From assembly GCF_030247195.1 (NCBI RefSeq), contig NC_080671.1, positions 82,458,370 through 82,522,369 on the forward strand: a stretch of DNA of 64,000 nucleotides. Direction: 5' to 3'. Under the pieces are notes generated by a model that saw only the letters and a program-made list of their open reading frames with translations, searched no databases and was not told the DNA's origin. Origin of the DNA: Topomyia yanbarensis (taxonomy: Eukaryota; Arthropoda; Insecta; Diptera; Culicidae). The stretch's first letter is position 1. Every line of letters starts with the position of its first letter. The translations under genes were made by a program, and so were the position numbers. Shown here piece by piece: positions 6,491-48,990 of this stretch.

Positions 6491-6611
6491 CCAATTGCTA
6501 TTTTTGTAATTCGACCTGCGTGCAGCTGCTAAAACACCAAATTGTTTGCACTGAATAACGAAGCTCGTGCTGCCATTGTTTCGTTGTTGCTAATCGTCGG
6601 TGGCTAACAAA

Positions 6612-7355
6612 ATGAAATGTAAAAAGTGCTGTTTGTCAATCGAACTAAACACTGGTCTCATCGTGGTGTGTGAAGGAAGATGTGCTGATCACTTTCATGC
6701 AGCATGTGTTGGTCTCGAGGAAGTGCAAATTAACTCGTTCTCGAACAATGTAATTTGGCTCTGTGATGACTGTGCGTGTGTCTTTTACAAAATTCGGGAT
6801 ACGATGGGTTCAGCAGAGAAACCGCAAGTCAATGTTGAAGCAGAAATTACGGCGATGAAACGGCAGATAAGTGATATCTTGAACACGGTGTCAATGCTTG
6901 TTCCTGGTGATGATGCTGGAAAGAGCCACTCGACACCTGTTTCAACGTCTATAGTCCATAATAAAATGAGTGCAAGCATCAGCCAAATCGATGTAACTGC
7001 ACCTACCGTGCCACCCCTGTCATTACCGCCTAACAGGTCCGCGACAAACAGTGACATGAAATTTGCACTTTTCTTATCGAATGTTGACTGCAGTGTTTCG
7101 AAAAATGAAATATCGCTGTTGGTCTCCAATTCTCTCGGCATCAATAGTGTCGATGAGATAGAAACGAGCAAATTAGTGCCAAGATGGAAAAACTGCAGTA
7201 CGCTGGATTATGCATCGTTTAAAGTAGTTTTGTCTGACAGGTGGAAATCAAAAGCTTTGCAACCGTCATCGTGGCCTCGTGGTGGATTGAAATTTCGAGA
7301 ATTTGTGCATCGTGATACCTGGAAACCAGAGATTTTTAGAAAAACTTGTACCTGA
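6612..7355 (+). CDS. PHD-finger ORF1 protein of a non-LTR retroelement
   Basis: The frame of 247 codons opens at ATG 6,612; an in-frame GTG at 6,600 is not needed. The N-terminus is a PHD-type zinc finger at about residues 2-56, seen as CKKC, CEGRC, HFHAAC and CDDC. A Ser/Thr/Pro-rich linker follows. The C-terminal domain (about residues 145-240) contains LSNVDCSVS, DYASFKVVLSDRWK and SSWPRGGLKFREFV, typical of the nucleic-acid-binding ORF1 domain of insect non-LTR elements. There are no CCHC knuckles and no endonuclease or RT follows: the stop at 7,353 is trailed by AATAAA at 7,361. It may be an ORF1-only derivative, and its PHD plus WPRGG layout could match the jockey-type family at 44-49 kb. 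Function presumably is RNA binding in an RNP. The frame is intact; activity is unknown. Confidence 0.75.
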   Translation: MKCKKCCLSIELNTGLIVVCEGRCADHFHAACVGLEEVQINSFSNNVIWLCDDCACVFYKIRDTMGSAEKPQVNVEAEITAMKRQISDILNTVSMLVPGDDAGKSHSTPVSTSIVHNKMSASISQIDVTAPTVPPLSLPPNRSATNSDMKFALFLSNVDCSVSKNEISLLVSNSLGINSVDEIETSKLVPRWKNCSTLDYASFKVVLSDRWKSKALQPSSWPRGGLKFREFVHRDTWKPEIFRKTCT

Positions 7356-15948: not shown

Positions 15949-16665
15949 TGTAATGTTTAAATCCAATTGATACAAACATTACATTGACCCATTCATGCCC
16001 ATGTTGTTTGTGAACAACAACGTTTTTAAACAGCTTTAACTTTTGATTGAGGCGAGATTTGCTCACAAAATCAAGTAAGGCTCATTAAAGTGATTATTGC
16101 CTTTAATTTGAGTATTAACAGTTACAAGGATCAGCTCTAGAACTGAAGTTATTGCAATTAGTCTGATTTGATTCCGATGGAGCAGTGCTGCCAGAGACAG
16201 TTGCGTTGACGACGGAAAATTATTTTTTTCATATATCTTCGTAATGGTGCAATATTACTGAAAAATGATAAAACTTAGCAATTTAGACTGTAGTTGGGTA
16301 CGTTTTCCACGTAGTTGGACTATTGTAATTATTCTAGGAGAATTGTATTGAGCATTAGAAGGTAAAAAGTGACCAGCTTCTAGCACTGCCATGGAAGTAC
16401 TTATTTTTATGAAAATAAACTTTTCGTGTTTCTCGACCGCACCGAAAAATTGTTTTGAAACCCTAAAAACTAAAAAAAAGTTGGGCATGAAAGGGTTAAG
16501 GCGGGGCTGGTTGATGGAACTTCGGAACATGTCTGGCGCTGTATACGAAATGGGTCATCGGAAAGTCAATTGAGCTATCACCTACCTAAATCCGTTCACC
16601 AAGTTTTGCATGAATATGTTTGAATACATGCAAACAGCTAGTGGGAGTGGTTAACGCACACATAT
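15949..16665 (+). repeat. dispersed repeat, copy 1 (interrupted)
   Basis: This is the first of two direct copies; the second is at 58,316-58,555. Both begin with a hairpin region containing AATCCAATTGATACAAACATT. Both continue with AAGGCGGGGCT(G/A)GTTGATGGA, GAAATGGGTCATCGGAAAG and TCAATTGAGCTA, ending near GTTAAC(G/A)CACACA. Copy 1 carries an extra segment of about 510 bp (15,987-16,495) lacking in copy 2. Confidence 0.75.
15987..16495. mobile_element. MITE with ACCC(A/T)TTCATGCCCA ends
   Basis: The left end reads ACCCATTCATGCCCA and the right end TGGGCATGAAAGGGT, inverted repeats of about 15 bp. Comparison with the uninterrupted repeat copy at 58,316-58,555 gives the empty site ACAGTAAGG, so the insertion is real and used a roughly 3-bp T(T/G/A)A-like target. 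A 60-codon frame inside is fortuitous. Confidence 0.75.
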
Positions 16666-17975
16666 ATCTACTCAAATTCAATTTAATGTGGACTTTTCCA
16701 AATGTTGAGTTATATCTACTCAAATCCAATAAAAAGTGGACTTTTCCAAATTTTGAGTAACTTCTACTTATTTTCAATTAAATGTGGATTTTTCCAAATT
16801 TTGAATAACTTCTACTCATTTTCAATTAAATGTGGACTTTCCAAATTTTGAGTAATATCTACTCAAATCCAATTAACTATAGACTTTTCCAAATTTTGAG
16901 TAATATTTACTCAAATACAATTAAAAGTGTACTTTTCCAAATTTTGAGTAACTTCTACTCATTTTCAATTAAATGTGGACCTTTCCAAATATTGAGTAAT
17001 ATCTACTCAAATCCAATTAAATGTAGACTTTTCCAAATTTTGAGTAATATCTACTCAAATCCAATTACATGCGGACTTTTCCAAATTTTGAGTAATATCT
17101 ACTCAAATCCAATTAAAAGTGCACTTTTCCAAATTTTGAGTAGCTTCTACTCTTTTTCAATTAAATGTGGACTTTTTCGAATTTTGAGTAACTTCTACTC
17201 ATTTCAATTAAATGTGGACTTTTCCAAATATTGAGTAATATCTAATCAAATCCAACAAATAGTGGATTTTTCCAAATTGTGAGTAACTTCTACTCATTTT
17301 CAATTAAATGTGGACCTTTCCAAATATTGAGTAATATCTACTCAAATCTAATTAAATGTAGACTTTTCCAAATTTTGAGTAACTTCTACTCATTTTCAAT
17401 TAAATGTGGACTTTTATAAATATTGAGTAATATCTACTCAAATCTAATTAAACGTAGACTTTTCCAAATTTTGGGTAATATCTACTCAAATCTAATTAAA
17501 AGTGTACTTTTCCAAATTTTGAGTAACTATGACTTTTCTAAATTTTGTGAAATATCTACTCAAATCCAATTAAAAGTGGACTTTTCCAAATTTTGAGTAG
17601 CTTCTACTCATTTTCAATTAAATGTGGACTTTTCCAAATTTTGAGTAATATCTACTCAAATCCAATTAACTATAGACTTTTCCAAATTTTGAGTAATATT
17701 TAATCAAATACAATTAAAAGTGGACTTTTCCAAATTTTGAGTAACTTCTACTCATTTTCAATTAAATGTGGACTTTTCCGAATTTTGAGTAACTTCTACT
17801 CATTTCAATTAAATGTGGACTTTTCCAAATATTGAGTAATATCTACTCAAATCCAATTAAATGTAGACTTTTCCAAATTTTGAGTAACTTCTACTCATTT
17901 TCAATTAAAAGTGAACTTTTCCAAATTTTGAGTAATATCTACTCAAATCCAATTAAATGTGGACTTTTCCAAATG
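16661..17975. repeat. 48-bp minisatellite array, about 28 units
   Basis: Units are 48 bp (a few 47, one about half deleted near 17,527). Two subtypes occur: A with TAATATCTACTCAAATCCAA and B with TAACTTCTACTCATTTTCAA; both end in CTTTTCCAAATTTTGAG. Each junction is palindromic: TTGAGTA-(ATATC)-TACTCAA in type A. Blocks of units repeat (units 4-6 resemble units 21-23, including the rare CTATAG variant). Because 48 is a multiple of three, a 134-codon frame runs through part of the array; it is an artefact, not a gene. Confidence 0.95.
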
Positions 17976-18307
17976 TCTACACCCTTTTGAAAAATTTCTT
18001 TTGTATCAAAATATTGCAATTGTCAGAGAAAATCATGGAGATTCATAAACTGAGCACAAGTTCAATGTTTCGTTCGAATCGACCATGGTCATATTTTGTG
18101 GTCGGTCGGTTTCTCATGGAATCCCTCTAGAACAAATCAGTTAATAACTAGAATATTCCGGCTCGTATGAGCATTATCCAACATAAAAATGGAGAAAATT
18201 TTGGCTTCTGTTTGTTGGGGGTTGGCCGAGCTCAAGTTTGCCGCTTTAAGTTAAAACTGATGTACTCTAGAATATCCGTCTTTCAATATTCATATCTTTT
18301 GTTTCTC
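17976..18307. other. unassigned sequence before MITE
   Basis: No gene or repeat boundary is recognised between the minisatellite and the interrupted MITE. Confidence 0.4.
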
Positions 18308-18375
18308 TTAGTCATCCATAAATGACGTAGCATTATATGGTGGCGGGGGACTTTGCCTTGCATTACATACAAGTA
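18308..18375 (+). mobile_element. left part of MITE split by retrotransposon
   Basis: TCATCCATAAATGACGTAGC followed by ATTATATGG matches the left end of the complete MITE at 24,261. The match fades near 18,375. The right part of this copy is at about 23,880-24,176, beyond the retrotransposon. Confidence 0.75.
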
Positions 18376-18699
18376 AAGAGGAATGCCAATTTTCATTCAT
18401 AAACATTGCTTTTGTGAAAGTGAATATGGTAACTTGTGTGTACATAGTGCAGGAAGCAATCGCTTAAATTTGTGAGAAATACTTTGCTTTTCGTTGAAAA
18501 CTTTGTGGGCGCTAATCGCTAATCGGAATATCATTCAGATAGGTATAGTGTGTAGTCATACAGACTATTATTGTTCTGTGATTTTCGGATTTCATTTCGC
18601 TGCATCGGCTGGCTTTGTACGTTTCCCAGCAGCGAGGTGACGCAGTGTTATATTTTTTGTTTTGTCCCGCTTCTCCAGCTGTTGTTTAATTTGCCTATA

Positions 18700-20136
18700 A
18701 TGAGTGGCCTGTGTGCAAAGTGTACGGGCACGGTGAGTCTCGCCGAAGGTCTTGTACTATGCCTTTTTTGCGGCGATAAATACCATCAAAAATGTTCCGG
18801 GTTAACAAAGGCCATGGTAAATTGGGTGGCTGATAATGCAAGTCTTTGCTACAAATGTGCAAAATGTTTATCAACCCAGTCTTCTGGTGTGCAGGATGTC
18901 AGTTCGATAATCATTGAGTTGGATAAGAAAATGGAACAATTCGCTTCCATTTCTGAATCTCTCACTGATGCCCGAAAAAACATCGATGCACAGATAAACA
19001 TCGCAGTAGAAAACGGAATAGAAAAACTGATCAGGTCTTTCAACAACTCTCTCGAGAGTAAATTGGCTGGCTTGGAAAACAGTGTTGCCAAAAAGTTGGA
19101 AGATTTTAAAAGTTGTTTTAATGAAAATGTTAAGCGTGAAATTGAATTAGTTGGAATGAACAGAAAGAGGAATTTTAGTAATACGAAGGTTCATTCTGAA
19201 TCGGACGGGAATTCCAGTAGAAAACGAAAAATTTTGACGAATAAAGAAGATGAACCGATGTTAATTGAAATAGACGATGATGGAAATAATGACGAGGTTT
19301 TTGATAAAAATAGTAGAATTACTTATGCGAATGTTTTGTCGGGAGCTACAGGGACGAATAAAATTAGAACTAGAAGTCAAACGAAACGTAAGGCTCGCCC
19401 GGTCATTGTGATTAAACCAGTCGAGCCGTTGCAATCGAGTGACGACACGAGGAATGAATTAAAAAATAAATTAGATCCAAAGGTGCACAAAATTAGCAAC
19501 TTTAAAAACGGTAAAGATGGCTCGATTATTGTGGAGTGTGCAACTCGGGATAATATTGAATCGGTGAAAGAAAACATTGTAAGCAATCTGGGTGAAAAGT
19601 ATAATGCTGTTATACCGATACCCGGTAAACCGAAGATAAAAATAATGGGGATGAGTGATCGACACTCTGAAGAAGTCTTCATTGACTTATTGAAGAGTCA
19701 GAATGAGGGTATTCCGTTTGAATATGTTAAAGTTGTTGCCAATTTCCAAAATCCACGCTTCAAATATAACAAATACAATGTTATAATTGAAGTTGATAAG
19801 GACACTTATAGCAGCCTGATGTCAGCCCGTGCGGTAAACATTGGTTGGGATAGGTGTTCTGTTTTTGATGCCTTTAACGTGCTGCGCTGCTTCAACTGTG
19901 GAGAATATGGTCATAAGAGCACGGGATGCGTGAATAAAGAAACATGCTCCAGATGTAATGGAGCACATAGAACATCTGAATGCTCGTCAACGGATTTTAA
20001 ATGCGTTAATTGTATTAAAAAGAATAATGAACGTAAAATGAATTTGGACGTAAATCATGCGGCATTTAGTAAGCAGTGTTCAGTATATCGGAGACTGCTA
20101 GAATTGAAAAAAAGCAACGTTTGGTCAAGTGAATAG
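18700..20136 (+). CDS. retrotransposon ORF1: PHD finger plus zinc knuckles
   Basis: 478 aa from ATG 18,700. An upstream in-frame ATG at 18,571 would add 43 residues of leader-like sequence, but the PHD finger starting at Cys5 favours 18,700. The PHD finger (residues 5-55: CAKC, CLFC, HQKC, CYKCAKC) is followed by a helical, probably coiled-coil region (about 65-150). Next come a basic stretch with SRKRK and a central domain with NVIIEVDKDTYSSL. The C-terminal part has three zinc-knuckle-like motifs: CFNCGEYGHKSTGC (397-410), CSRCNGAHRTSEC (416-428) and a third starting CVNC at 435. This is the gag-like RNA-binding protein of the element and should form the RNP with its mRNA. It ends at UAG, followed in frame by CAA CUA and the ORF2 frame. 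Clade call CR1/L2-like is from general resemblance. Confidence 0.9.
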   Translation: MSGLCAKCTGTVSLAEGLVLCLFCGDKYHQKCSGLTKAMVNWVADNASLCYKCAKCLSTQSSGVQDVSSIIIELDKKMEQFASISESLTDARKNIDAQINIAVENGIEKLIRSFNNSLESKLAGLENSVAKKLEDFKSCFNENVKREIELVGMNRKRNFSNTKVHSESDGNSSRKRKILTNKEDEPMLIEIDDDGNNDEVFDKNSRITYANVLSGATGTNKIRTRSQTKRKARPVIVIKPVEPLQSSDDTRNELKNKLDPKVHKISNFKNGKDGSIIVECATRDNIESVKENIVSNLGEKYNAVIPIPGKPKIKIMGMSDRHSEEVFIDLLKSQNEGIPFEYVKVVANFQNPRFKYNKYNVIIEVDKDTYSSLMSARAVNIGWDRCSVFDAFNVLRCFNCGEYGHKSTGCVNKETCSRCNGAHRTSECSSTDFKCVNCIKKNNERKMNLDVNHAAFSKQCSVYRRLLELKKSNVWSSE

Positions 20137-20142
20137 CAACTA
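20134..20142 (+). promoter_or_regulatory. candidate stop-codon readthrough signal UAG CAA CUA
   Basis: ORF1 ends GAA UAG, and the two next codons are CAA CUA. This fits the UAG-CAR-YYA consensus established for tobamovirus-type leaky termination. ORF2 continues in the same frame without another stop, and its first AUG (20,209) lies downstream of the endonuclease catalytic Asn. A readthrough product would be 1,413 aa. This is a prediction from sequence only. Confidence 0.6.
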
Positions 20143-20154
20143 ACAAACGAGAGG

Positions 20155-22941
20155 TTGTCTGAAACATTGTATTTAAATATAGCTGGGTTATCTACAAACT
20201 TTGTCGCAATGCGACATCTTGTAGAAAACAAACGTCCATTGTTGGTTTTAATATCAGAAACACATATTGTTGATGCTGATGCATTTGATCAGTATAGCAT
20301 TCCGGGTTATAAAGTTGCTTTTTGCCTATCTCATTCCAGACATACCGGTGGAGTTGCTATTTACGCCAAAGAATCGATTAAATTCAACGTTCGGTTAAAC
20401 GAAGCAGTTGATAATAATTGGTTCTTGGGTATATCAGTTGAAAGAGGCATGCAGATGGGAAATTTTGCAGTAGTATACCATTCTCCTAGTTCAAGCGATC
20501 GACGGTTTTTAGAAATTTTAGAAAACTGGTGGGAGAATTTCGTTGACTTAAGTAAACTTAATGTAATTTCGGGCGATTTCAATATTGATTGGCTCAATGA
20601 TCAAAATTCGAATCAGTTGAAGCAGTTGGCAGAGTTTTTCAATTTCAAGCAAACGGTTAGTGAGTTTACAAGAATTTCCAGACACAGTAGAACATTGATA
20701 GATCACGTGTATTCCAATTTTGATGGGGTTCATTCGTATGTAGAGGCCGATTGTAAAATTTCAGACCATGAGACAATTTCAATTTTACTGGAGAATGAAC
20801 CTAACCATGAAGAGGATAAAGTTAAAATCAAGTGCTGGAAAAGATATTCGAAACAAGCTATGTCTCAACTGGTTTCGAGAAGCATGGATTTTACGGAATT
20901 GAATGGAAATTTGGATAACAAGGCAGCTGTTCTAACTAACGTGTTAAAAGAGTGTACAAATAGTTTAGTTTCTCAAAAGTTTGTTAATTCAAATAAATCG
21001 AACAGCTGGTACTCTTTAGATCTTTTGCGTCTTAAACGTAAAAGGGATAAAAAGTACAAGAAATTTTGCAGAACTAATAGTGAACGTCTTTGGAATGGGT
21101 ACACACACGCGCGAAATATTTATTCACGGGCCTTGAAGAAGACCAAATGTGAATATATTCAAAGGAAGATCGATCAACATCAAAACAACAGCAAAGAGTT
21201 ATGGAAAATCCTAAAGAATTTAATTAAACCTAAACGTAGTTCCTCGCAGTCCATAACTTTTAACGGGATAGAAGAACAATCTGAACAAATAATAGCTGAA
21301 AAATTGAACAGTTATTTCGTTAACAGTGTCCAACTGATCAATCAAAGTATTGAGCTGGTCAGTGAACCTGTGGAAATAACACAGCCGATTAATACTAACT
21401 GTAGATTTGACGGATTTCACCCAATCACTTTTGAACAATTGAAAGATATTTGTTTTTCTTTGGGAAAATCGGCTGGTATCGATAATGTCAATGCAAAAGT
21501 GATACAGGATTGCTTTCATGTCATCGGACACGATCTGCTGGATCTTGTAAATGAATCGCTACAAACTGGGCACGTGCCGACAGTTTGGAAGGAGTCACTT
21601 GTGATTCCTATTCCCAAAGTTACTGGGACGGATAAAGCCGAAGAGTACCGCCCCATTAACATGTTGCACACATTAGAGAAAATTTTAGAACTTGTTGTTA
21701 AGGGCCAGCTGATGAGTTATTTGAATAATAATAATTTGCTAATTCCGGAGCAATCGGGATACCGAGAGGGACACTCTTGCGAAACCGCTTTGAATCTAGT
21801 GTTAGCAAAATGGAAAGAGAAAATCGAGGTTAAAGAGACTATATTTGCTGTATTTTTGGATCTGAAACGCGCTTTTGAGACAATTTCGAGACCTTTACTT
21901 TTGAAAACTTTAGAGCGATTTGGTATCGGAGGGATAGCACATAAGTGGTTTGAAAACTATCTATGTGATAGAACTCAGAAAACTAGTTTTAACGATTTTG
22001 TATCTAGTCCTCTCGACAATCCTCTTGGAGTGCCGCAAGGTAGTGTCTTGGGTCCTATTTTATTTATTATGTATATAAATGACATTAGGCGAGTTTTACG
22101 ATTTTGTGACCTAAATTTGTTTGCTGACGACACTGTTCTGTTCATTGCAGCTAAGGATATAGATGAAGCCGTGGCGCATTTGAACGAAGATTTGCATTCC
22201 CTTGCTCGTTGGTTAAAATTTAAACAATTAAAGTTAAATGTTGCTAAAACTAAATATATGATTATCTCTTCGGCTAATACTAGGCCTGACGTTAACGTTA
22301 AAATAAATGGTGAGACTATTGATCGCGTTAGTGAATTAAAATATCTTGGAATAATCATTGATGATAAGTTAACCTTTAAGTCTCACATCGACAATGTCAT
22401 CAAAAAGATTGCTAAAAAGTATGGTATATTGTGTCGTCTGAAAAATGATTTAACAATTAGTAGTAAAATTTTATTATATAAATCTATTGTTTCACCACAT
22501 ATTGACTTCTGCCCGTCCATTTTGTTTCTTGCCAATCAAACACAAATATTGAGGTTACAGCGATTGCAAAATAGAATCATGCGATTAATTTTAAAATGTA
22601 ACAGATACACTTCCTCTAGTTTCATGCTAAGCGCATTACAATGGCTCTCTGTGAAGCAAAGAATTTATTACTTAACAATGGTGTTCATTTTTAAAATTAT
22701 TAATGGAATGCTACCTCGATATTTGTGTGATCGAATTGAAAGAGGAAGTGATGTGCATAGGTACAACACTAGAAACGCGTCTGATGCAAGAACACCTAAC
22801 TTTTTATTTAGTAGATCACAGAACTCCTTGTTATACAAAGGAATAAGTTTTTTCAATTCGATGCCTAGACATATTAAACGTGCGGCAACATTAGCGGAGT
22901 TCAAAACACTATGTATTTCACACGTAAAATCTGCTTTGTAG
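20155..22941 (+). CDS. retrotransposon ORF2: endonuclease and reverse transcriptase
   Basis: An open frame of 928 codons, counted from TTG 20,155, although nothing marks that codon as a start. The AP-type endonuclease spans residues 1-225: Asn8 in LNIAGL, Glu35 in ISETHI, GDFN at 140-143 and SDH at 203-205 are the catalytic and metal-binding positions. The RT domain (about 440-710) shows SAGIDNVNA, FLDLKRAFETI, GVPQGSVLGP and the active site FADD at 656-659, then KLNVAKTKYM and the thumb (LKYLGIIID). A C-terminal region follows (HIDFCPSILF, RLQNRIMRLI). It would nick target DNA and copy the RNA by target-primed reverse transcription in the nucleus. No premature stops or frameshifts are present. 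It lacks a proper AUG, so expression probably depends on ORF1 through readthrough or reinitiation. Confidence 0.95.
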   Translation: MSETLYLNIAGLSTNFVAMRHLVENKRPLLVLISETHIVDADAFDQYSIPGYKVAFCLSHSRHTGGVAIYAKESIKFNVRLNEAVDNNWFLGISVERGMQMGNFAVVYHSPSSSDRRFLEILENWWENFVDLSKLNVISGDFNIDWLNDQNSNQLKQLAEFFNFKQTVSEFTRISRHSRTLIDHVYSNFDGVHSYVEADCKISDHETISILLENEPNHEEDKVKIKCWKRYSKQAMSQLVSRSMDFTELNGNLDNKAAVLTNVLKECTNSLVSQKFVNSNKSNSWYSLDLLRLKRKRDKKYKKFCRTNSERLWNGYTHARNIYSRALKKTKCEYIQRKIDQHQNNSKELWKILKNLIKPKRSSSQSITFNGIEEQSEQIIAEKLNSYFVNSVQLINQSIELVSEPVEITQPINTNCRFDGFHPITFEQLKDICFSLGKSAGIDNVNAKVIQDCFHVIGHDLLDLVNESLQTGHVPTVWKESLVIPIPKVTGTDKAEEYRPINMLHTLEKILELVVKGQLMSYLNNNNLLIPEQSGYREGHSCETALNLVLAKWKEKIEVKETIFAVFLDLKRAFETISRPLLLKTLERFGIGGIAHKWFENYLCDRTQKTSFNDFVSSPLDNPLGVPQGSVLGPILFIMYINDIRRVLRFCDLNLFADDTVLFIAAKDIDEAVAHLNEDLHSLARWLKFKQLKLNVAKTKYMIISSANTRPDVNVKINGETIDRVSELKYLGIIIDDKLTFKSHIDNVIKKIAKKYGILCRLKNDLTISSKILLYKSIVSPHIDFCPSILFLANQTQILRLQRLQNRIMRLILKCNRYTSSSFMLSALQWLSVKQRIYYLTMVFIFKIINGMLPRYLCDRIERGSDVHRYNTRNASDARTPNFLFSRSQNSLLYKGISFFNSMPRHIKRAATLAEFKTLCISHVKSAL

Positions 22942-23879: not shown

Positions 23880-24176
23880 AAGTGTGAGCAAATTATTTGG
23901 TTCTTTTACTGGATGGTTCATGCTTCGTTTTTCATTTTTTTAAACTTTCAAATTTCTCTAAATGCAATGGAAAATTATTGAACATGTGCGCAATTAAAAA
24001 CGGTCAGTTTTTTTCTTTGCTAATTCTCGAACAATACATACTCAGCTTTAGGGGGGGGAGGGTTTCCGTCAAGCTGTGTCATTACCAAGGGGAATTTGGA
24101 GGTTTGTGACGAAATGCTACGATGAGAGAGGGTGTTAAAAATCACTCAACAAATGCTACGTCATTTATGGATGGAG
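23880..24176 (+). mobile_element. right part of MITE split by retrotransposon
   Basis: It ends AAATGCTACGTCATTTATGG and contains CCGTCAAGCT, GAGGTTTGTGACGAAATGCT and GTTAAAAATCACTCA, matching the right half of the complete MITE at 24,261-24,560. Together with 18,308-18,375 it is one copy interrupted by the retrotransposon. Confidence 0.75.
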
Positions 24177-24260
24177 CCTCACGAGAATCGCTTGGATCGA
24201 GCTGAATGAACTCAATTCTAACATGTTTGTCACGGTGTTAACCGACTTGTCTCTCTGTAA

Positions 24261-24560
24261 GGGATCATCCATAAATGACGTAGCATTATATGGGGGAGGG
24301 GGGAGTTTTGTATTTTGTGATGATGTGTGACGACAGGGGGTAGGGGGTCATGTCATGCTACGTAGCTTTTTTAAAGGGGAATAACTAACATCGTTTTCTA
24401 TTTTTTTAATTTTACCGTGACAAGGGGGGGGGGGGGGGAGAATTACCGTCAAGCTACGTAATTACCAGGGGGTATTTAGAGGTTTGTGACGAAATGCTAC
24501 GATGGGGGAGGGGGTGTTAAAAATCACTCAGAAAATGCTACGTCATTTATGGATCGTCCC
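24261..24560. mobile_element. complete MITE, 300 bp, TAA target duplication
   Basis: The terminal inverted repeats are GGGATCATCCATAAATGACG and, complemented, GGGACGATCCATAAATGACG, both continuing TAGCATT. TAA flanks the element on both sides (24,258-24,260; 24,561-24,563). A 3-bp TWA target and G-rich ends fit PIF/Harbinger-type MITEs. It contains a G15 run at 24,424 and no coding capacity. Confidence 0.8.
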
Positions 24561-24563
24561 TAA

Positions 24564-27500
24564 AGGGGAATATTTATTGAAAGAAAATGTGTAAACTTAA
24601 CTGTATCCAGTTTCGTCATATTAGGAATGTGGTACTAATTTAGTTAATTACTACTTAAATATTCATTTCCTCAACATAAAAAACATCACAAATTTGACAT
24701 GAAATGTAATGTAACTGCGTTGTTATTATGTACTTTAAGCATTATCTTCGAGCAGAAATTCTAAAGTGGATTTTTATAAGTCAAACAATTGATTTGGTCA
24801 ATTATTTGGCTTAAAAATATACTACTGAAACGATGTGCTTCATGTAATTTCAGTAGCTTGGACGAAAACAATTTAAAAATTACACTCTATAAAAAGGGGA
24901 CTGATTATACGGAGAAATTCTTTCCCGTTTCCGTTGAAAATTAAATAAAGCTTGCCTAAACAGTAGTTCCTGTGATGTGGATGTGGATAAAATGTTATTC
25001 AATTTTTATCAACAACGCTGATGACCTATTGGCATCTAGTCACCATTTTGTATATGCACTACCAACCGTCAAACTTCCTGCTGACAAATGTCGAACACGC
25101 GCAGTTATTATTAGTTTTTTATGTTGATTAATTTAAATTTTAAACAGTTTTTTTCGCCGTCAGATTCATTCCAGGTTTTTTGCTATTGGCATGTTGCGCA
25201 TCCCCCTGTTTCCTTCCAAAGCAGATAGATTCGTTTGCACATCGATGAAAATCTAATTTTTCAAAGTGCTATCTGTCTAAGCTGACAGCATAATTTTTTT
25301 CTCTATCGATTTGCCTTGTGATCCCATATTCTTGCTAGCATAAATTTGTATTTTAATCACTCCGAACCGAATGAAACGAATCCAAAGTCCGGTTTGCCGC
25401 TTGCGTTCGCAAAAAGTTCGCGAATTCATTTTTGATTGATTGAAGCTGTCGTTCTTGATGCATAGCTGTCAACCGAAAATGTGATGAGATGAAGAATTTC
25501 AAAAGCAATCATCTGATAGATCTTAGAGCCAATTAGTCTCGATCAGAAGTGCTTCCTGTGAGAAACTCGTGTGTGCTGACTAGTGCATATCGAATTGCCT
25601 GTGGACACACCGGGTAAAGAGAAGTGCCCGTTGAAAAAAGGTTCAAAGGCTCAGCAGCACACGGGCTAGATCCGGCTGAATAGTTGTCCTCAGCCTGAGC
25701 TAAGCAGCCGGCAGAATGATGCCATGCTTCAAGAATGTGCGAATTTCATGAAAAAAGTGGCGACTGTATGTTGAAATTACTGCGGCTAGCTCCAAACTCT
25801 ATACTTGGAGTGCTAGCTCATCGTGAATTGAGCCGAGAAGAGAATCTCAATATCAATTGTTGATGTTCACTTCTCAGGATGTGGAAGCATGTATGCTGCA
25901 ACGAATTACTCGTGGGGCTCTTGGCCGAAAATAGCCACAAGCCGAAACTTGAGAGCCGGCAAACGAATTGGTGGAGCTTCTGCGCCATTCTGCTGCTAAT
26001 GGGGCAGCCTTTTCGTGCTAAACACACCCGAAGTGGGAAGACCTTGGCCACGAACTCTTTGTGGAACCGCAGGGTTTGAAGTGTACATATCTTCAATTTT
26101 GTGATGGTGTCATTAGCGACACAAATGAGTAGTACATAACGTTGTGGGTACGGTTGCGTTGTATTGGTGTGAAGTTGTTTTAAAGCATGATTTTCATTCC
26201 ACTTTAGTGAAAGTGAAAATAATAATTATATATTTAGTTGAATCAGACGTTGTTGTTTGAGGCGCAGTACTTGCACTAATCCTAATGAAAAAAATGATAA
26301 GTAATAGAACTGTTAAGATTATCAAGAAAATATATCCTTCTGCAGAAAAAATAGTCGTTTCCAAATCAATCATTATCATGCTATGATATGCGAAATGAGT
26401 AATAACTTCTATGCAATACATTGCGAATTTCATCCGAGTTGCTAACCACTAGCACCCACAAAAAAATTTCTATGGGGCATCACCAAATCTATGCTACGTA
26501 CAAAAAGGACAATGCGGTAATAAACATTTCAGTACACAGCGCCAGACAAAACGAAGCACAAACATAAAAAATCAAGCTCAAAAATCAACGCCACTTTTGA
26601 CGGAGACAGGGCGACGGCTCTTCAATAACCACGGTAACGATCCTCGAACCTATCCGATCCCGTATCAGTAAACACGAGTGCTGCTTACCTTGCCCGAAAA
26701 CGGTGTTTTTATGCGGTGGTTTTCAATTAACCGTTGCTCGTCATGCCGCGATACTGAGCCGATTGCTGCTGTGTCATTTACATACCATAGTTGGGGTTCA
26801 GTGTTTGTGGTTTCCATTTTATTCCGTTTAATTTGGTTATGTACCAGTCTCTTCTGTCAGCAAGACACGAACTTTGCTGGTCTTTTCTTCTCATTCTTGT
26901 TGGGGATGGGTTCATTCATACTCTGTCTGTGGGGCTCCTTTTGTCGTTGAACGGGCAAAATTTACAGCAGATTGAACATAAAATTCATCTGCGGCATTCT
27001 TCGTATATGATTTAACTTGTGGCTGCAACCTCATAACTTCCGCACCACGTTCCAGCTGGCGGAATCATTGCGAATATGACAGGCTATTGTCAGGTTTGTT
27101 GGGTTCATAGGATTAGCTTGCGGTTTTTTACACTTTCAACGTAACGATGATGAGAATATGGATTTGGCGGTTATTGCTTGTACATACTTTGTTCTTCTTT
27201 TTGTGTTCGACATTTAATATTTTCTGTCATTGATATGTTTATTCCAAGTCATGATTATGATGTCTATGATTTAATAGAGAAGATAGTCACTAAAACCTTT
27301 GAATTATTCAATTTATTAGTTATTATTTAGGGTACTTATTTGTCACATTCATAATGAGTGGAATGATTTTTTTTTCCGATAATTTAAATCGAATTAATAA
27401 ACTGAATAAATCAAATTAGTTCAGCTTATTAAATAGAAAATTAGAAACGTTGAAAAAAGTTACTAGAAAAAATTCAATTGTGTCAAATTAACAAACTGGA

Positions 27501-38623: not shown

Positions 38624-40628
38624 CACGGTGTTCCTAAAACCGTTATTAACTAAAAAAAATTACCATAAATTTGGCATACGGCATTCGAAAGACACAGTAT
38701 CCAAGCATCTTCTCAGTGAATTTCAAAATGATCCATCGAGGGATTCGAGAGATATGACGATTTGAAGTTTTATGATACGTTTCATAAGGCTACCAGCAAA
38801 CACCCACGGGTTTGGTCCAATCTCTATGAACAAAAAAATATTTGTCTACTTATTTAGTACATGGCATTCAAAAGATATAGTAATCAAGTATATTCCCTGC
38901 AAGTTTGGAAATATTTCATTGACGGTATCGAAAGTTATAACGGTTTGGATGTGGTATGCGGTCATAGTTGGGTTTTCTACCAGACTTCAAGCGTGAATCC
39001 ATGTTTGTCCATTGACTATTTAGATCGTTTATACGTGTCGCGATTTTTAAAGGTAACCCTTGCGATTTAATTACATAAATATAATGTACAAATGGTGTTA
39101 TTATTATGGTGCACTGAAAAAATATGACAATAGGGTTGTCTACCAAACGTTAAATATAATGTGTAAATTAAAAAAAATAGATGAAAGTTGGAATGTTTAC
39201 TTCAAAAGGCCATATCTCAATGGTATGTTAACAGGTAGACGTTTCATCGTTAATTTTCATCAAGAAGAATATAAAATAGAGTTGTCTACATAAATAAATA
39301 GACAGTATAATTGGTCTCAAATATATGTATTATAATTATTTAGTGATTATTTTTGTATTAAAAATAGCGGCCTATCAATTTTTATATACTAGTTGATTGC
39401 AATTGCTGTTTACTACAAATTATGGATATATGAAATGTTAAAACTAACACAGTCGTGATTCGCTGGTCGCTCAATTTTTAACAGGAGCCACTTTTTAGTT
39501 GGACCTCCGCTAGTTGGTCCATTGTCGACATCTGAATGTCAAATTCTCATGTTAAATTCAATTCGACAATAAAACTGACAATAGCTAGAGATATGAGCAG
39601 ATGAACTTATACTAATAACATTCCCTTTGATCCCCCTACTAATAACATCCCCCAGTTTTAACATCTGTCAACTCAACCAGCGAATCACGATTGTACAAAA
39701 TTTCCAACAAAAAACCGTATCATAACATAAATTGATCTGAATCAGCAAATACCTTCATATTTTTGAATATATGTATTGAATTTATGGTTTTATTTTTCCA
39801 TGATTTGTAGTTTGCGTTCGTTGCATTCAACTAATGTATAGAAATTGATAGGTCGTCGTTTTGAATATAAAGATATTTACTAAATAGTGATAATACATAT
39901 AGTTGAGGATAATTAACTTGTCTATTGTTTGAAGTAGCCAACTTTATTTTATATTCTTCTTGATGAAAATTAACGATGAAACGTCTACCTGTTCAATAAT
40001 GAAAAAATAATTAGAATCAGTCAACATACCATTGAGATATGGCCATTTGAAGTAAACATTCCAACTTTTATTCATTTTTTTAGTTTTCACATTATATTTA
40101 ACGTTTGGTAGACAACCCTATTTTCATATTTTTTAAGTGCACCATATTAATAACACCATTTGTGCATTATATTTATGTAATAAAATGGTTAGGGTTTCCT
40201 TTAAAAAACTCGACACGTATAAACGATCTAAATAGTCGATGGACAAACATGGATACACGCTTGAAGTCTGGTAGAAAACCCAACTATGACCGCATACCAC
40301 ATCCAAACCGTTATAACTTTCGATTCCGTCAATGAAATATTTCCAAACTTGCAGGGGATATACTTGATTACTATATCTTTTGAATGCCATGCACTAAATA
40401 AGTAGACAAATATTTTTTTGTTCATAGAGATTGGACCAAACCCGTGGGTGTTTGCTAGTAGCCTTATGAAACGTATCATAAAACTTCAAATCGCCATATC
40501 TCTCGAATCCCTCGATGGATCATTTTGAAATTCACTGAGAAGATGCTTGGATACTGTATCTGTCGAATGCCGTATGCCAAATTTATGGTCATTTTTTTTT
40601 AATTAATAACGGTTTTAGGAACACCGTG
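38624..40628. repeat. 2-kb long inverted repeat, about 800-bp arms
   Basis: The left arm (38,624-39,430) starts CACGGTGTTCCTAAAACCG and is matched in inverted orientation by the right arm (about 39,795-40,628), which ends CGGTTTTAGGAACACCGTG. Similarity persists along the arms with scattered substitutions: the 76-codon frames at 38,916-39,146 (minus) and 40,105-40,335 (plus) are mirror copies differing at roughly a tenth of residues. The loop is about 360 bp and contains a MITE. No TSD was found at the outer ends. A transcript across it could form very long double-stranded RNA. Confidence 0.85.
39452..39692. mobile_element. small MITE in loop of long inverted repeat
   Basis: The left end is GTCGTGATTCGCTGG and the right end CCAGCGAATCACGAT, inverted and about 240 bp apart. 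There is no coding sequence. The target duplication is unclear. Confidence 0.65.
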
Positions 40629-44261: not shown

Positions 44262-46511
44262 ATTTGTTTATTTTGTTTAATACATCAACAGGCATATCAA
44301 AGCCCCAATCATGTTGGCCTAAATACTAATCTTATTTATAATAATCAAATCGCACATAAAAATAATAATCATACAATAATTATAAGCAAAGAATGAAAAG
44401 GTCAAGTGTTGTTAAAGAATTGATTAAAAAATCTGGAGAAACGAATACGCAGAGTTTGTCGAGAAACGTTGAAATCAAGTGCTGAAGCTACCTGGTTAAA
44501 AATTCGTTGCAGACATACCATACATACTATAATTTGTGCGTCGGAATGGCAATCGGAATATAATGTTGTTACGTAGTGCTCGAGGTGCGACGTTTATGTT
44601 GATTTATTCCAAAATAGCTGGGGCATCTATACGACCTTGCAGAGTGGCAGCGATGAACAAAGCTCTTGCGGTATTCCTTAATCGAACATGTAGGGGCTCT
44701 AGTTGAATCAGCTGACATCGGTTTTCATAGCTAGGTAGTCAGACAGGATCTCTCCACAGCAACCTACGGAGCGCGAAACGTAAAAAAGCGACGCTACACA
44801 CTTTCAATTCTTTCAACGCCATTATTATAGTTCGGGCTCCATACTTAAGGGCAATATTCTAGAATTGATCTGGATAAAGAGCAGTACAGCAATTTGAGAC
44901 AATAAACATCCGTAAAGTTTTTGGTTTTCCTGAATATGCATCCCAGTGCTCGAGACGCTTTACCAACTGCATAGAAGACGTGTTGTTTAAACGTAAGTTG
45001 AGAATCCAGAATCACTCCCAGATCCTTCACGTGACTGACACGTTCGATATCTGTTTCTAGTAGACGGTAGTTAAAATAAATCGAATCCTTCTTCCGTGAA
45101 AAAGATATTACCGAGCACTTCTTCGGGTTTACATACATGCGGTTCGTATTGCATCAATCAGCAAAGACTTGAAGCTGCTGTTGGAGAACTCTGCAATCTT
45201 CAATTGAACAAATTAGGCGAAAAATCTTGAGGTCATCCGCGAAGGATAATCGTGGAGTCTTCAAAATTAGATGTACATCATTGAAGTATATCAGAAACAT
45301 CAATGGTCCCAAGTGGCTTCCTTGAGGTATTCCAGATGTAGAAGTGAATGTAGGGGCCTGGTCAGTGAGGTAGGATCGAAACCATTGCAAAATACTACCA
45401 TTTATTCCAAATCTATCCATTTTTGCAATTGCGATATCGTGGTTTATCTTGTCAAAAGCGGCAGATAAGTCGGTGTAAGCAAAGTCGGTTTGAGCGCGAT
45501 GTTCCATACTCTCTGTTATGAAGGATGTTAAACATAATAGGTTAGACGCAGTTGACCGTCCAAACGTGAAGCCGTGTTGATCGTCACTTAGGTACTGCTT
45601 ACAGTGAGCCTGAAGAGGTTCCATAATCACAAGCTCGAACAACTTCGAGACAGTACCCAATGAAGTTATTTTACGGTAGTTATTGACGTCTCGCTTATTT
45701 CCCTTTTTATGTACTGGGAACATGTTCGCTGATTTCCAGCAAGATGGAAAAATACCTCTGTCAATAGATGTTCGAAAGATGTGAAGAAGCGGATTAACCA
45801 AAACTTCGATGTGCCTTATCAGAAAAGCGGCGGGGAACCCGTCGGGTCCCGGATTGAAGGATGACTTAAGTCGAGAGGAAGCTTTGGTAATCATCGTTGC
45901 ATTGACATCGATAGCACCCAGAGTTTGACCCACAAGTGGAGCTCTGCTAGCGGCGATAGTTAATTCCTCATCTGTGAACGCATTCGCGAATTTTTCCGAA
46001 AAAAAGTGCACAGCTGTGTTACCATTGAAAGTCATAGATGACGGCAGTCCAGATTCCTTGCGCTGCTCGTTCACATATTTCCAGAAACGTTAAGGATGCG
46101 ACTTAAGATTACGCTGAATATTTTGCTGATATCCATAGAAACAGTTTTGACTGTCTCGTTTATACGCATGGTTGAAACTGATGTAATAATCTCTGAGTGA
46201 TATTGTACGATACTTGGTAAATCTCCGCAGGGCAGCTCTCTTGATAGGCTTCAACCATCGCAATGTACTCGTTTGCCATGGAGAGCCGGTTTTTCGATGG
46301 TGAACTTTCTTCGGAACGTACCTGCCAATAAATATCGGAAATAAATGGAATATCGAAATCATGCACCACAGTGTTATCAATCGTAGCAATCAATGGAGGA
46401 TGATGCATCACTGGTTTTACTAGAGGAGAGGACGCCATCACTATTGATGTGGCGGAAACCTGATCGCTGGCAAAACAAAGATCGAGATGGCGGCTATTTT
46501 CATTGGCAATA
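44262..46511 (-). pseudogene. jockey-type retrotransposon ORF2, 3' part
   Basis: This continues the element from 48,166 after the Tc1 insertion. On the minus strand: end of the endonuclease (ANENSRHLDLCFAS), a linker in two frames, a UAA at 46,090-46,092, then RT (46,074-45,154) with SSFNPGPDGFPAAF, YTDLSAAFDKINHD, GIPQGSHLGPLMF and FADDLKIF. The thumb follows (45,138-44,845: VKDLGVILDSQLTFK), then a frameshifted C-terminal tail (PNYNNGVERIESVQRRF) to about 44,400. The 3' UTR ends in an A/T-rich tail near 44,262 with AAATAAACGATCAAAA. Several frameshifts and at least two stops make it inactive. The family is commonly annotated as 'jockey-like'; I am not certain of the clade. Confidence 0.85.
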
Positions 46512-48165
46512 TAGTACTGGACAAAATAAATCATACACCACTTATTTTTATTTTTCGTGATCAATATCTCAGCCGGTTTTGAAATTAGCAGGCTGGTCCC
46601 TTGGGGAATGTTACTGTATTTTGTCATGATAAAAATTTGCCGATATGGAAAATATAAGATAATGCATGACTTTCTCAATATGTATTGATTTATAATAAGG
46701 AAACTGTATTGATATGGACAAAATAAATCATACACCTTTTGTTTTGTTCTTCAATAACTTTTATCGATTTATTTTTCACTTTTCAATATTTGGTGTGACC
46801 ACCCTTTGCTTTCAACACTGCTTCCAATCGTCTTGGCATACTTTCGACGAGGTTTTTCAGATATTCCTGATCAATTTCTTCCCATGCGGTCTCGAGAGCT
46901 TCAAAATAGACATTTTTGTTGGAAACCGTCGTCTTGTCTACTTTTCCATCCAAATAACCCCACAAATTTTCGATTGGGTTCAGATCAGGAGATTGTGGAG
47001 GCCATTCAAGAACTTTTACCCTGTTTGATTTGAAGAACGCAGTAGTTTTCTTGGCAGTATGCTTCGGATCATTGTGTTGTTGGAAATGAATTTGGTTTCT
47101 AGACCAGTTTTCAAAAGAGAAACCTCCAAATTTTCAGACAGCAAGTCAATGTACACATCAGCAGTCATAATCCCCTTGATGTGTGCCAAGCTTCCGACTC
47201 CAGACCATGCGAACGATCCCCACACCATAATGTTACCACCTCCATGCTTCATCGTCTTTTGAATATATGCTTCCTTAAGTGCATCACCAGAATGTCTCCA
47301 AACTCTTGAAAGTCGCTTTTGTCCGAATAGCTCAAACTTACTCTCGTCCGTTCATAAAACTGTTTTCCAGAAGTCCATAGTCATACCAGCGTATTTTTTT
47401 TGGCAAACTCCAATCGCTTCTTTTGGTTTCGTTTGTTAATGAATGGGCGCTTAGATGCAAAACAGCTCTTTAGTCCACTTTCGGCGAGCCGCCGACGAAC
47501 AGTACGTCAACTAACATTGAGATCCAACGATTCCACAATATTTCTCGACGATAATTTCGGATTTTTTTTTAGCCAATCAAACAATTCTGACATCATCACG
47601 ATGCGTCGTCAAGCGATGGCGGCCTTTTCCGGATAAATTTCCAACAATTCCTTGTGTTTTATATTTCTTCCATATATGCTGCACAGCTTCAATCGAAATT
47701 GAGTATCGCTTAGCAATTTCCCGAAAAAAAATGTCTTTTTCACGGTCGCGTATCACCAGATTTCTAACGTCCAGCGAAATCTGCTTTCCAGACATTTTTA
47801 ATGTTCAAAATGGAACCAACTCAGAATGTCAAGTGAAAACTAAATCTATCTTGGCACTAGAGCTGTCAAAGAATGCAGTGATGCCAAAATTTCAAAATTG
47901 GTTTAATTGGTTTTATCGTAAAATGTGATTTTTGAAGTGTATGATTTATTTTGTCCAACGTATAATGAACAATTATTCATATAAAAATTTCTAGCAGAAA
48001 TACCTCATTATTATCAAAATCTCAGTCTCTACTATTGTTTGAACTGCAACAAATTAAAAAAAATTTCCATTCATGCCATCGTGCTTATTAAAGAAATAAC
48101 GCTAATATGATCAAAAATGCATTTTTAGAACAAGATGATGATATGATTTATTTTGTCCAGTACTG
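46512..48165 (-). mobile_element. Tc1-family transposon with IR/DR ends
   Basis: A 1,654-bp element flanked by TA (46,510-46,511; 48,166-48,167). Four copies of TGGACAAAATAAATCATA are present: outer pair at 46,518 and 48,159 (inverted), inner pair at 46,715 and 47,957 (inverted), about 200 bp inside each end. This is the IR/DR layout known from Sleeping Beauty- and Minos-type Tc1 transposons. Between the repeats within each end the two sides have diverged strongly. A decayed transposase lies between. It sits inside the endonuclease region of the jockey-type element. Confidence 0.88.
46760..47795 (-). pseudogene. Tc1-family (DD34E-type) transposase, decayed
   Basis: Starting at ATG 47,795, the N-terminal paired-type DNA-binding domain is readable for 72 codons (MSGKQISLDVRN, IFFREIAKRYSIS, GRHRL). 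Frames then change. TDESKFELFG (about 47,345-47,315) holds the first catalytic Asp; KHGGGNIMVWGSF (47,250-47,215) and the region near 47,075 (a decayed NDPKHT motif) follow; the C-terminus has IWMEK / WGYLDGKVDKT (about 46,965-46,935). Length and motif order match Tc1 transposases of about 340 aa. Multiple stops and frameshifts mean the copy cannot make active enzyme. It may once have moved this element. Confidence 0.85.
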
Positions 48166-48990
48166 TAGAATTGATTTGTAGTAACGTGGCTGAGCTATAG
48201 CTGTCAAGTAGCCTCAGTGCACCTGGGTGGAGTACGGAATGGTCCGAATCCGGATAAAGGAATTCATTGCGGGAAGACTTCCATGAAATGCTAGGAAGAT
48301 TAAAATCTCCTAGTACCATAATCTCAACAACTGCGTTAGCGGCTTCGAGGATAGTAAAAAGTGAGCTGCAGTGTGCTTCAACATATTCGACATCACGAGC
48401 GCGGTCGGGTGGAACATACAACGCACACAAGTACAACTTACGGTGGCCAAGCTCGACAATCGTCCAAGCCTGCTCTAGGCAAACCCAAGAAATATTTTCG
48501 ACAGTTTTTGCCTTTAAACTGGTATTAACTGCTACTAATGCGCTGCCTCTGGTAGATTTTCGGCTATTGCTAGGGCTCCGGTCGCAACGAAACACCTCGT
48601 ATCCAGTACCGAACACCTGACTGGAAAGCGTGTCATCGTTCAAGCACGTTTCGATGAAGACAATGATGTCAAAATTATTATCAGATATTGCAAGGCGGTA
48701 TTGCTCGACGATTGAGTTGATACCACCAACATTTTGGTAGTATAACAGCAGCTTATCCCGTCGTTGACCAAGGCTGGAAATCGAAGAGCTTTGAGGCAAG
48801 GAAGAGCTCACAGATGCATTGTACTTGCCTGAGGTAGGTTTGCGGAAGATCGCTCGTCCCAACTCCACCACAGGACCGGGACGGCTGCTGGTCGCTGGCA
48901 GGAATGGCTCGACTGTGATGGGGGACTAAGGGCTTCCTTACGACTGGCGGCAAGTGTGCGTCCTGGTTACCGAGGAGACGAGATTATGTG
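48166..48990 (-). pseudogene. jockey-type retrotransposon ORF2, 5' endonuclease part
   Basis: The minus strand from 48,871 encodes an AP-type endonuclease in one open frame: LLYYQNVGGINS (catalytic Asn), VFIETCLND (Glu), YVPPDRARD and VLGDFNLPSISW, ending in TLLQINS at the Tc1 junction. Removing the Tc1 element and one TA joins this frame to IANENSRHLDLCF at 46,509, so the insertion was clean. Upstream (48,953-48,871) is Pro/Ser-rich sequence that may be the end of ORF1 or the start of ORF2. No further 5' sequence is recognised, so the copy is 5'-truncated or too decayed. Confidence 0.85.

Follow-up and report, generated by a model that had tools for sequence, protein, structure and literature searches.

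We analysed a 64,000-nt stretch of the Topomyia yanbarensis genome (assembly GCF_030247195.1, NC_080671.1, positions 82,458,370-82,522,369 of the forward strand), hereafter the window, whose positions serve as coordinates throughout. Within it lies a young retrotransposon of the long interspersed nuclear element (LINE), or non-long-terminal-repeat, type with two open reading frames (ORFs) that are in phase and split by one UAG (Table 1). ORF1 occupies a stop-to-stop frame of 526 codons (18556-20136) and encodes 478 amino acids from its first ATG, and the ORF2 frame continues across the UAG for 934 codons, giving 478 + 1 + 934 = 1,413 codons in all. The ORF map thereby bore out the arrangement reported in a preliminary description of this DNA (an ORF1 ending in UAG-CAA-CUA and an in-phase, stop-free ORF2) as well as the length of 1,413 amino acids proposed there for a fusion product. 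At the junction UAG is followed by CAR-YYA, the sequence that defines type I readthrough, whose most familiar examples are plant and insect viruses; CARYYA has a chance probability of 0.0018 at the base composition of the element, and within ORF2 it occurs at 2 of 933 in-frame hexamer positions. An APE-type endonuclease and a reverse transcriptase (RT) are both encoded by ORF2, as in APE-type LINEs of the Jockey superfamily.

Table 1. Features of the element and of in-phase junctions in distant LINEs (window positions unless a locus is named)
Feature	Position	Strand	Basis or remark
ORF1, Cys-rich zinc-binding-like N-terminus and CCHC knuckles	18700..20136 (stop included)	+	First ATG; 37 aligned relatives
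Best CCHC zinc-knuckle match, ORF1 residues 396-408	19885..19923	+	E 0.042, misses Pfam cut-off
A7 run near ORF1 end, 20 nt upstream of stop	20107..20113	+	Some genomic copies out of phase after it
GAA, final ORF1 codon	20131..20133	+	Sequence
UAG stop, candidate leaky	20134..20136	+	Sequence; identical in 59 of the 60 distinct loci from this genome
CAA (20137-20139) and CTA (20140-20142), fitting the CAR-YYA type I readthrough hexamer	20137..20142	+	
ORF2 frame, endonuclease-RT, 934 codons and stop TAG (22939-22941)	20137..22941	+	
Endonuclease domain, model residues 7-219	20155..20793	+	Pfam Exo_endo_phos 4.1e-10; AlphaFold2 model
Catalytic Asn, ORF2 residue 14, counterpart of human L1 N14	20176..20178	+	Alignment and model
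Predicted hairpin with AUG 20209 at loop, 54 nt past stop, farther than usual stimulators	20191..20225	+	
First AUG in any frame past stop, in frame, ORF2 residue 25, within model helix 18-32	20209..20211	+	
RT domain, ORF2 residues 493-741	21613..22359	+	Pfam RVT_1 6.2e-32
Junction CAA-UGA-CUA	L007:1088-1096		ORF1 PHD finger passes Pfam cut-off
Junction GAA-UGA-CAA (and copy L006)	L008:1230-1238		
Junction GAC-UGA-CUA	L009:1438-1446		

The junction is a feature of the family and not a private mutation of one copy. A search of the genome (1.17 Gb) with window positions 19900-20420 (a 521-bp query) gave 433 first-look candidates, of which 40 were scored; all 40 matches were full length and 28, the window included, carried the top score. 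The 30 copies fetched had an identical junction and were 98.6-100% identical to the window over aligned stretches of differing start. Several of them are 5'-truncated, the match starting at differing internal points (for instance 18864, 19017, 19174 and 19541), so that the dispersed, 5'-shortened copies expected of a LINE are present. Searching again, now with an ORF1 relative from Aedes albopictus, gave 13,470 first-look candidates, of which 91 were scored and the best 30 fetched, along with ten further stretches (seven chosen because they contained an internal stop or their frames differed in length, three extending known loci). Dropping ten same-place repeats left 60 distinct loci, which are best-scoring copies and not a random sample; some are on small contigs and may be alternative versions of copies on the chromosomes.

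GAA-UAG-CAR-CUA was kept in 59 of these 60 loci, as GAA-UAG-CAA-CUA in 58 and GAA-UAG-CAG-CUA in one. The frame was open from the ORF1 zinc knuckle to the UAG, and in phase with it, in 53 of the 59, and at least 100 codons were open past the UAG in 56. The six loci that are out of phase (L074, L075, L076, L077, L078 and L080) owe this to a frameshift farther upstream and retain TAG-CAACTA unchanged; a shifted ORF1 C-terminus is common to L074 and L075, and L080 has a near-identical one. Three subfamilies could be distinguished, each with a copy having an open 934-codon ORF2, and codon changes occur just before and after the junction. Conservation of UAG-CAR-YYA amid varying flanking codons, which the preliminary description had named as a check, was found across the subfamilies, and neither a sense codon, another stop context, a frameshift nor an overlapping AUG is the state of the family among the own-genome copies.

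We found 68 relatives of ORF1, whose annotated hosts include Malaya, Culex, Aedes, Wyeomyia and Toxorhynchites, most matches having no host label. The window sequence was aligned with 37 near-full-length relatives, the 31 others, a few of which also retain the C-terminus, being omitted as truncated, short or distant. Over these 38 rows the Cys/His columns of the knuckle were invariant and the N-terminal Cys columns conserved; Pfam at E<=0.01 gave zf-CCHC in 33 rows and PHD in two, and no match for the window ORF1. The PHD finger claimed in the preliminary description is therefore weak by profile, its conserved N-terminal Cys columns being nonetheless present. Of the ten Pfam families listed across the 38 rows none was an RRM model, single-sequence Pfam scans being liable to miss RRM. 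A type IC ORF1 comprises a PHD, two RRM and three CCHC (PMC4120745). Given this ORF1 type and the mosquito hosts of the annotated relatives, the element most likely belongs to the CR1/L2 group.

All 38 ORF1 rows terminate at one common column, a point that bears on whether the in-phase UAG could have arisen by chance in a defunct copy, or by nonsense mutation of an element with a single ORF. Such an origin is contradicted by the data and deserves almost no credence: single copies can carry stops, and nothing more speaks for it, whereas the UAG is present in 59 of 60 distinct loci, all 37 aligned relatives end at the same column, and, among the 120 matches listed of 348 ORF2 relatives, none with at least 40% identity exceeds 952 amino acids, so that no fused relative is found there. 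A nonsense mutation in one copy was likewise rejected, since those 59 loci share the UAG.

The last ORF1 column has the composition K23 E13 Q1 I1 with no R, several neighbouring columns varying freely; over all 68 matches the last residue is K30 E18 Q6 N5 I3 C2 V1 A1 D1 R1. Because the only codons that K, E and Q share are of the form xAR, a constraint on the RNA (A at -2, a purine at -1) likely keeps these bases ahead of the stop. In yeast, adenines just ahead of a stop promote readthrough, and viral readthrough sites often have them; UAG-CAR-YYA, the type I consensus, stimulates readthrough in tobamoviruses, and UAG-CAA-CUA, the exact sequence found here, is listed for Providence virus (PMC3542737).

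No AUG is available that would yield an intact endonuclease. None starts in any frame at 20058-20208, the nearest upstream being at 20057, and an AUG overlapping or adjoining the stop, as in the LINE SART1, was sought at the junction and is absent. Residues 7-219 of the AlphaFold2 model align to residues 7-238 of the human L1 endonuclease chain (7n8k) with identical N-terminal numbering, and since the residue numbers agree at this end, the Asn at 20176 corresponds to N14 of L1. The preliminary description was correct that the first AUG (20209) lies downstream of the catalytic Asn, and wrong in numbering that Asn residue 8 in place of residue 14. In the alignment of ORF2 N-termini, 17 of 26 rows reach the Asn position and all 17 have N. 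Reinitiation at, or scanning to, AUG 20209 would give an ORF2 product beginning at residue 25; this codon is in frame and the first AUG past the stop, but we regard its use as very unlikely. The product would, according to the model, be without strand 7-14, part of helix 18-32 and Asn14, and residue 25 is M in just 3 of 18 rows and L or I in 15. Moreover, N14A in L1 and N17A in Zorro3 lower retrotransposition to 1% and <5%, respectively (PMC1965478).

Two in-frame UUG codons (20155 and 20167) lie ahead of the Asn, and termination followed by reinitiation at one of these near-cognate codons would give a separate ORF2 protein retaining Asn14. A review of reinitiation gives termination-reinitiation for SART1 and proposes it for L1. 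Against this, such a mechanism has no need for ORF1 and ORF2 to be in phase, for UAG-CAR-YYA or for xAR before the stop, and there is no AUG overlapping or soon after the stop. We consider it improbable; compared with a start at AUG 20209 or an accidental stop, it is the sole rival that is still serious.

Reinitiation at UUG would account as well as readthrough for conserved codons past the start, and selection across the junction was examined in four copies: the window, L081, L082 (close to the window) and L083, whose six pairs have members in common and cannot count as independent. In the subfamily comparisons the proportion of synonymous differences (pS) rose to 0.16 over ORF2 codons 25-934 and to 0.20 over the final 150 codons of ORF1. 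For the window and L081, pS was 0.164 and the proportion of non-synonymous differences (pN) 0.026 in ORF2 codons 25-934, and 0.229 and 0.055 in codons 1-24. In codons 1-24 pS exceeded pN in all six pairs (pS 0.06-0.29, pN 0-0.055; small counts), with one-sided Fisher probabilities of 0.058, 0.058 and 0.015 in three of the six, values that come from non-independent pairs and small counts. This pattern is suggestive, though not strong, evidence of protein-level selection on codons that would be translatable only by upstream entry.

Entry into ORF2 by internal ribosome entry, or by slippage at the A7 run, was also considered, as the run lies shortly before the stop and several copies are out of phase beyond that region. 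Since the two ORFs are already in phase, slippage there would throw ORF1 out of the ORF2 frame, and no evidence of an internal ribosome entry site was seen, without a dedicated search. Either route seems extremely unlikely.

These data argue for programmed readthrough of the UAG to yield an ORF1-ORF2 fusion, as the preliminary description had proposed, and we consider this probable given the signal in 59 of 60 own-genome loci and the absence of any AUG that could serve ORF2. Most ribosomes would terminate at the UAG and release ORF1 protein alone, and a minority, owing to the leaky type I context GAA-UAG-CAA-CUA, would decode the UAG as an amino acid to give a fusion of ORF1, endonuclease and RT of 1,413 amino acids. 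ORF1 protein in excess could then bring small amounts of the fusion into a ribonucleoprotein particle, in the manner of Gag and Gag-Pol.

Several observations weigh against readthrough. Conservation of the junction reflects in large part recent descent, because the copies are very young and only the best-scoring ones were fetched, and one of the 60 loci (L066) is without the UAG-CAR-CUA sequence. Another ORF1 column (K28 E5 Q2 and three others in the 38 rows) passes the same K/E/Q filter as the last one, so this pattern alone is no proof, and pN between the window and L081 is higher in codons 1-24 than in the rest of ORF2. There is no clear RNA structure just 3' of the stop, with z-scores of 0.01 (60 nt), -2.5 (90 nt), -1.3 (120 nt) and -1.2 (150 nt). 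Predicted ORF2 N-termini of relatives are mixed, some beginning past the Asn and some with M shortly ahead of it; P0001, P0007, P0009, P0010 and P0016 begin with M before the Asn and may have a genuine start codon there. Gene callers write M for GTG and TTG starts too, and mixed N-termini would be expected if they take any start within an AUG-poor stretch. Finally, readthrough is known in many mosquito and fly genes, but those of Anopheles and Drosophila mostly have TGA, and loss is more frequent at TAG (PMC5100048).

Distant relatives were encoded by 11 contigs of bacterial or archaeal assemblies, which we infer to be eukaryotic contaminants; L007, L008 and L009 are on contigs of metagenome-assembled genomes. 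In four of the 11 (L006, L007, L008 and L009, of which L006 and L008 represent a single element) ORF2 is directly preceded in phase, across one stop, by an open frame of 117 codons or more, giving three independent distant elements; counting the window, all four elements have C as the base that follows the stop. UGA-CUA is a type II leaky context, usually accompanied by a 3' stem-loop (PMC3542737); such a stem-loop was sought at the distant LINE junctions and none was found, the lowest z-score among four fold lengths for L007, L008 and L009 being -1.42. Among the remaining contigs, the upstream in-phase frame is no longer than 51 codons in L001, L003, L004 and L005, where other frames reach no more than 59; L002 starts inside ORF2 and L011 contains a fragment. 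L010 was set aside: its low-complexity 792-codon ORF, in a different frame, overlaps the start of the RT-bearing frame, and it may be an out-of-phase case. The view in the preliminary description that readthrough would be an uncommon expression strategy may be wrong, given three distant LINEs in which a single in-phase stop is followed by CUA or CAA. We lean, with some reserve, towards in-phase leaky stops being a recurrent route by which CR1/L2-like animal LINEs would make a Gag-Pol-like ORF1-ORF2 fusion, with contexts that differ by lineage (UAG-CAR-YYA, UGA-CUA and UGA-CAA). No relative spanning an ORF1-ORF2 junction turned up in scans of viral contigs, where L012 and L013 match distantly over short stretches; a tblastn search of phages gave a single distant partial match, that of plasmids 13 records, the ten among the matches listed all being group II intron RTs, and a sequence search of the PDB two weak irrelevant matches.

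Elsewhere in the window, parts of a repeat resembling a miniature inverted-repeat transposable element flank the LINE at 18312-18349 and 24051-24172, with a further copy at 24260-24565. The LINE therefore appears as if inserted into one such repeat, in which case its 5' end lies past 18349. A tandem array of 48-bp units (16548-18118) lies upstream of the element. An open frame with a PHD finger (6594-7355, + strand; E 0.00057) is possibly the orphan ORF1 of a different LINE, with no in-frame ORF2 within 600 bases past it, and RT and endonuclease fragments at 44848-46317 and 48125-48925 (- strand) represent other, apparently broken, LINE sequence whose RT is ~25% identical to ORF2. A long inverted repeat (38652-40599) has 525-nt arms that are 96% complementary and further inverted pairs within.

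The overlapping stop-start of SART1 is UAAUG. That element resembles ours in that abutting LINE ORFs are coupled in translation, and differs in that no overlapping or close AUG is found here. ORF2 is the second cistron in Zorro3 and human L1 also, but their ORFs are non-overlapping with a spacer between them, and Zorro3 requires its ORF2 ATG; in 2007 the same paper called ORF2 translation of non-overlapping LINEs not known and suggested internal initiation or reinitiation (PMC1965478). The mosquito LINEs CR1_3 and L2_2, with a type IC ORF1, share the CCHC knuckles, a Cys-rich N-terminus that is possibly a PHD, an endonuclease-RT ORF2 and, for the annotated relatives, mosquito hosts, and the terms 'stop codon' and 'readthrough' are absent from the paper on them (PMC4120745). 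A leaky stop between LINE ORFs was not found described in the open-access literature searched by title and start of abstract, Repbase and most subscription journals lying outside the search. We have here a known LINE group carrying a known viral recoding signal at its junction.

If the stop is indeed leaky, the ORF1:ORF2 ratio would be governed by a single short signal, as it is in retroviruses, and the fusion would tether the enzyme to an RNA-binding protein. Should the UGA-CUA and UGA-CAA cases hold as well, readthrough would be a broader LINE strategy, masked by annotation that splits the gene in two. Murine leukaemia virus uses a type III signal, with UAG-G and a 3' pseudoknot, unlike the linear hexamer of this element, which has no clear adjacent structure; gammaretroviral gag-UAG-pol nevertheless has the same order of a nucleic-acid-binding ORF and an in-phase RT frame across one UAG. 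The closest likeness in the signal itself is to the type I viral cassette (UAG-CAA-UUA in tobamoviruses, UAG-CAA-CUA in Providence virus), which belongs to RNA viruses and not, as here, to a cellular LINE, and with which the element shares the UAG, CAR-YYA, AA before the stop and an in-phase polymerase frame.
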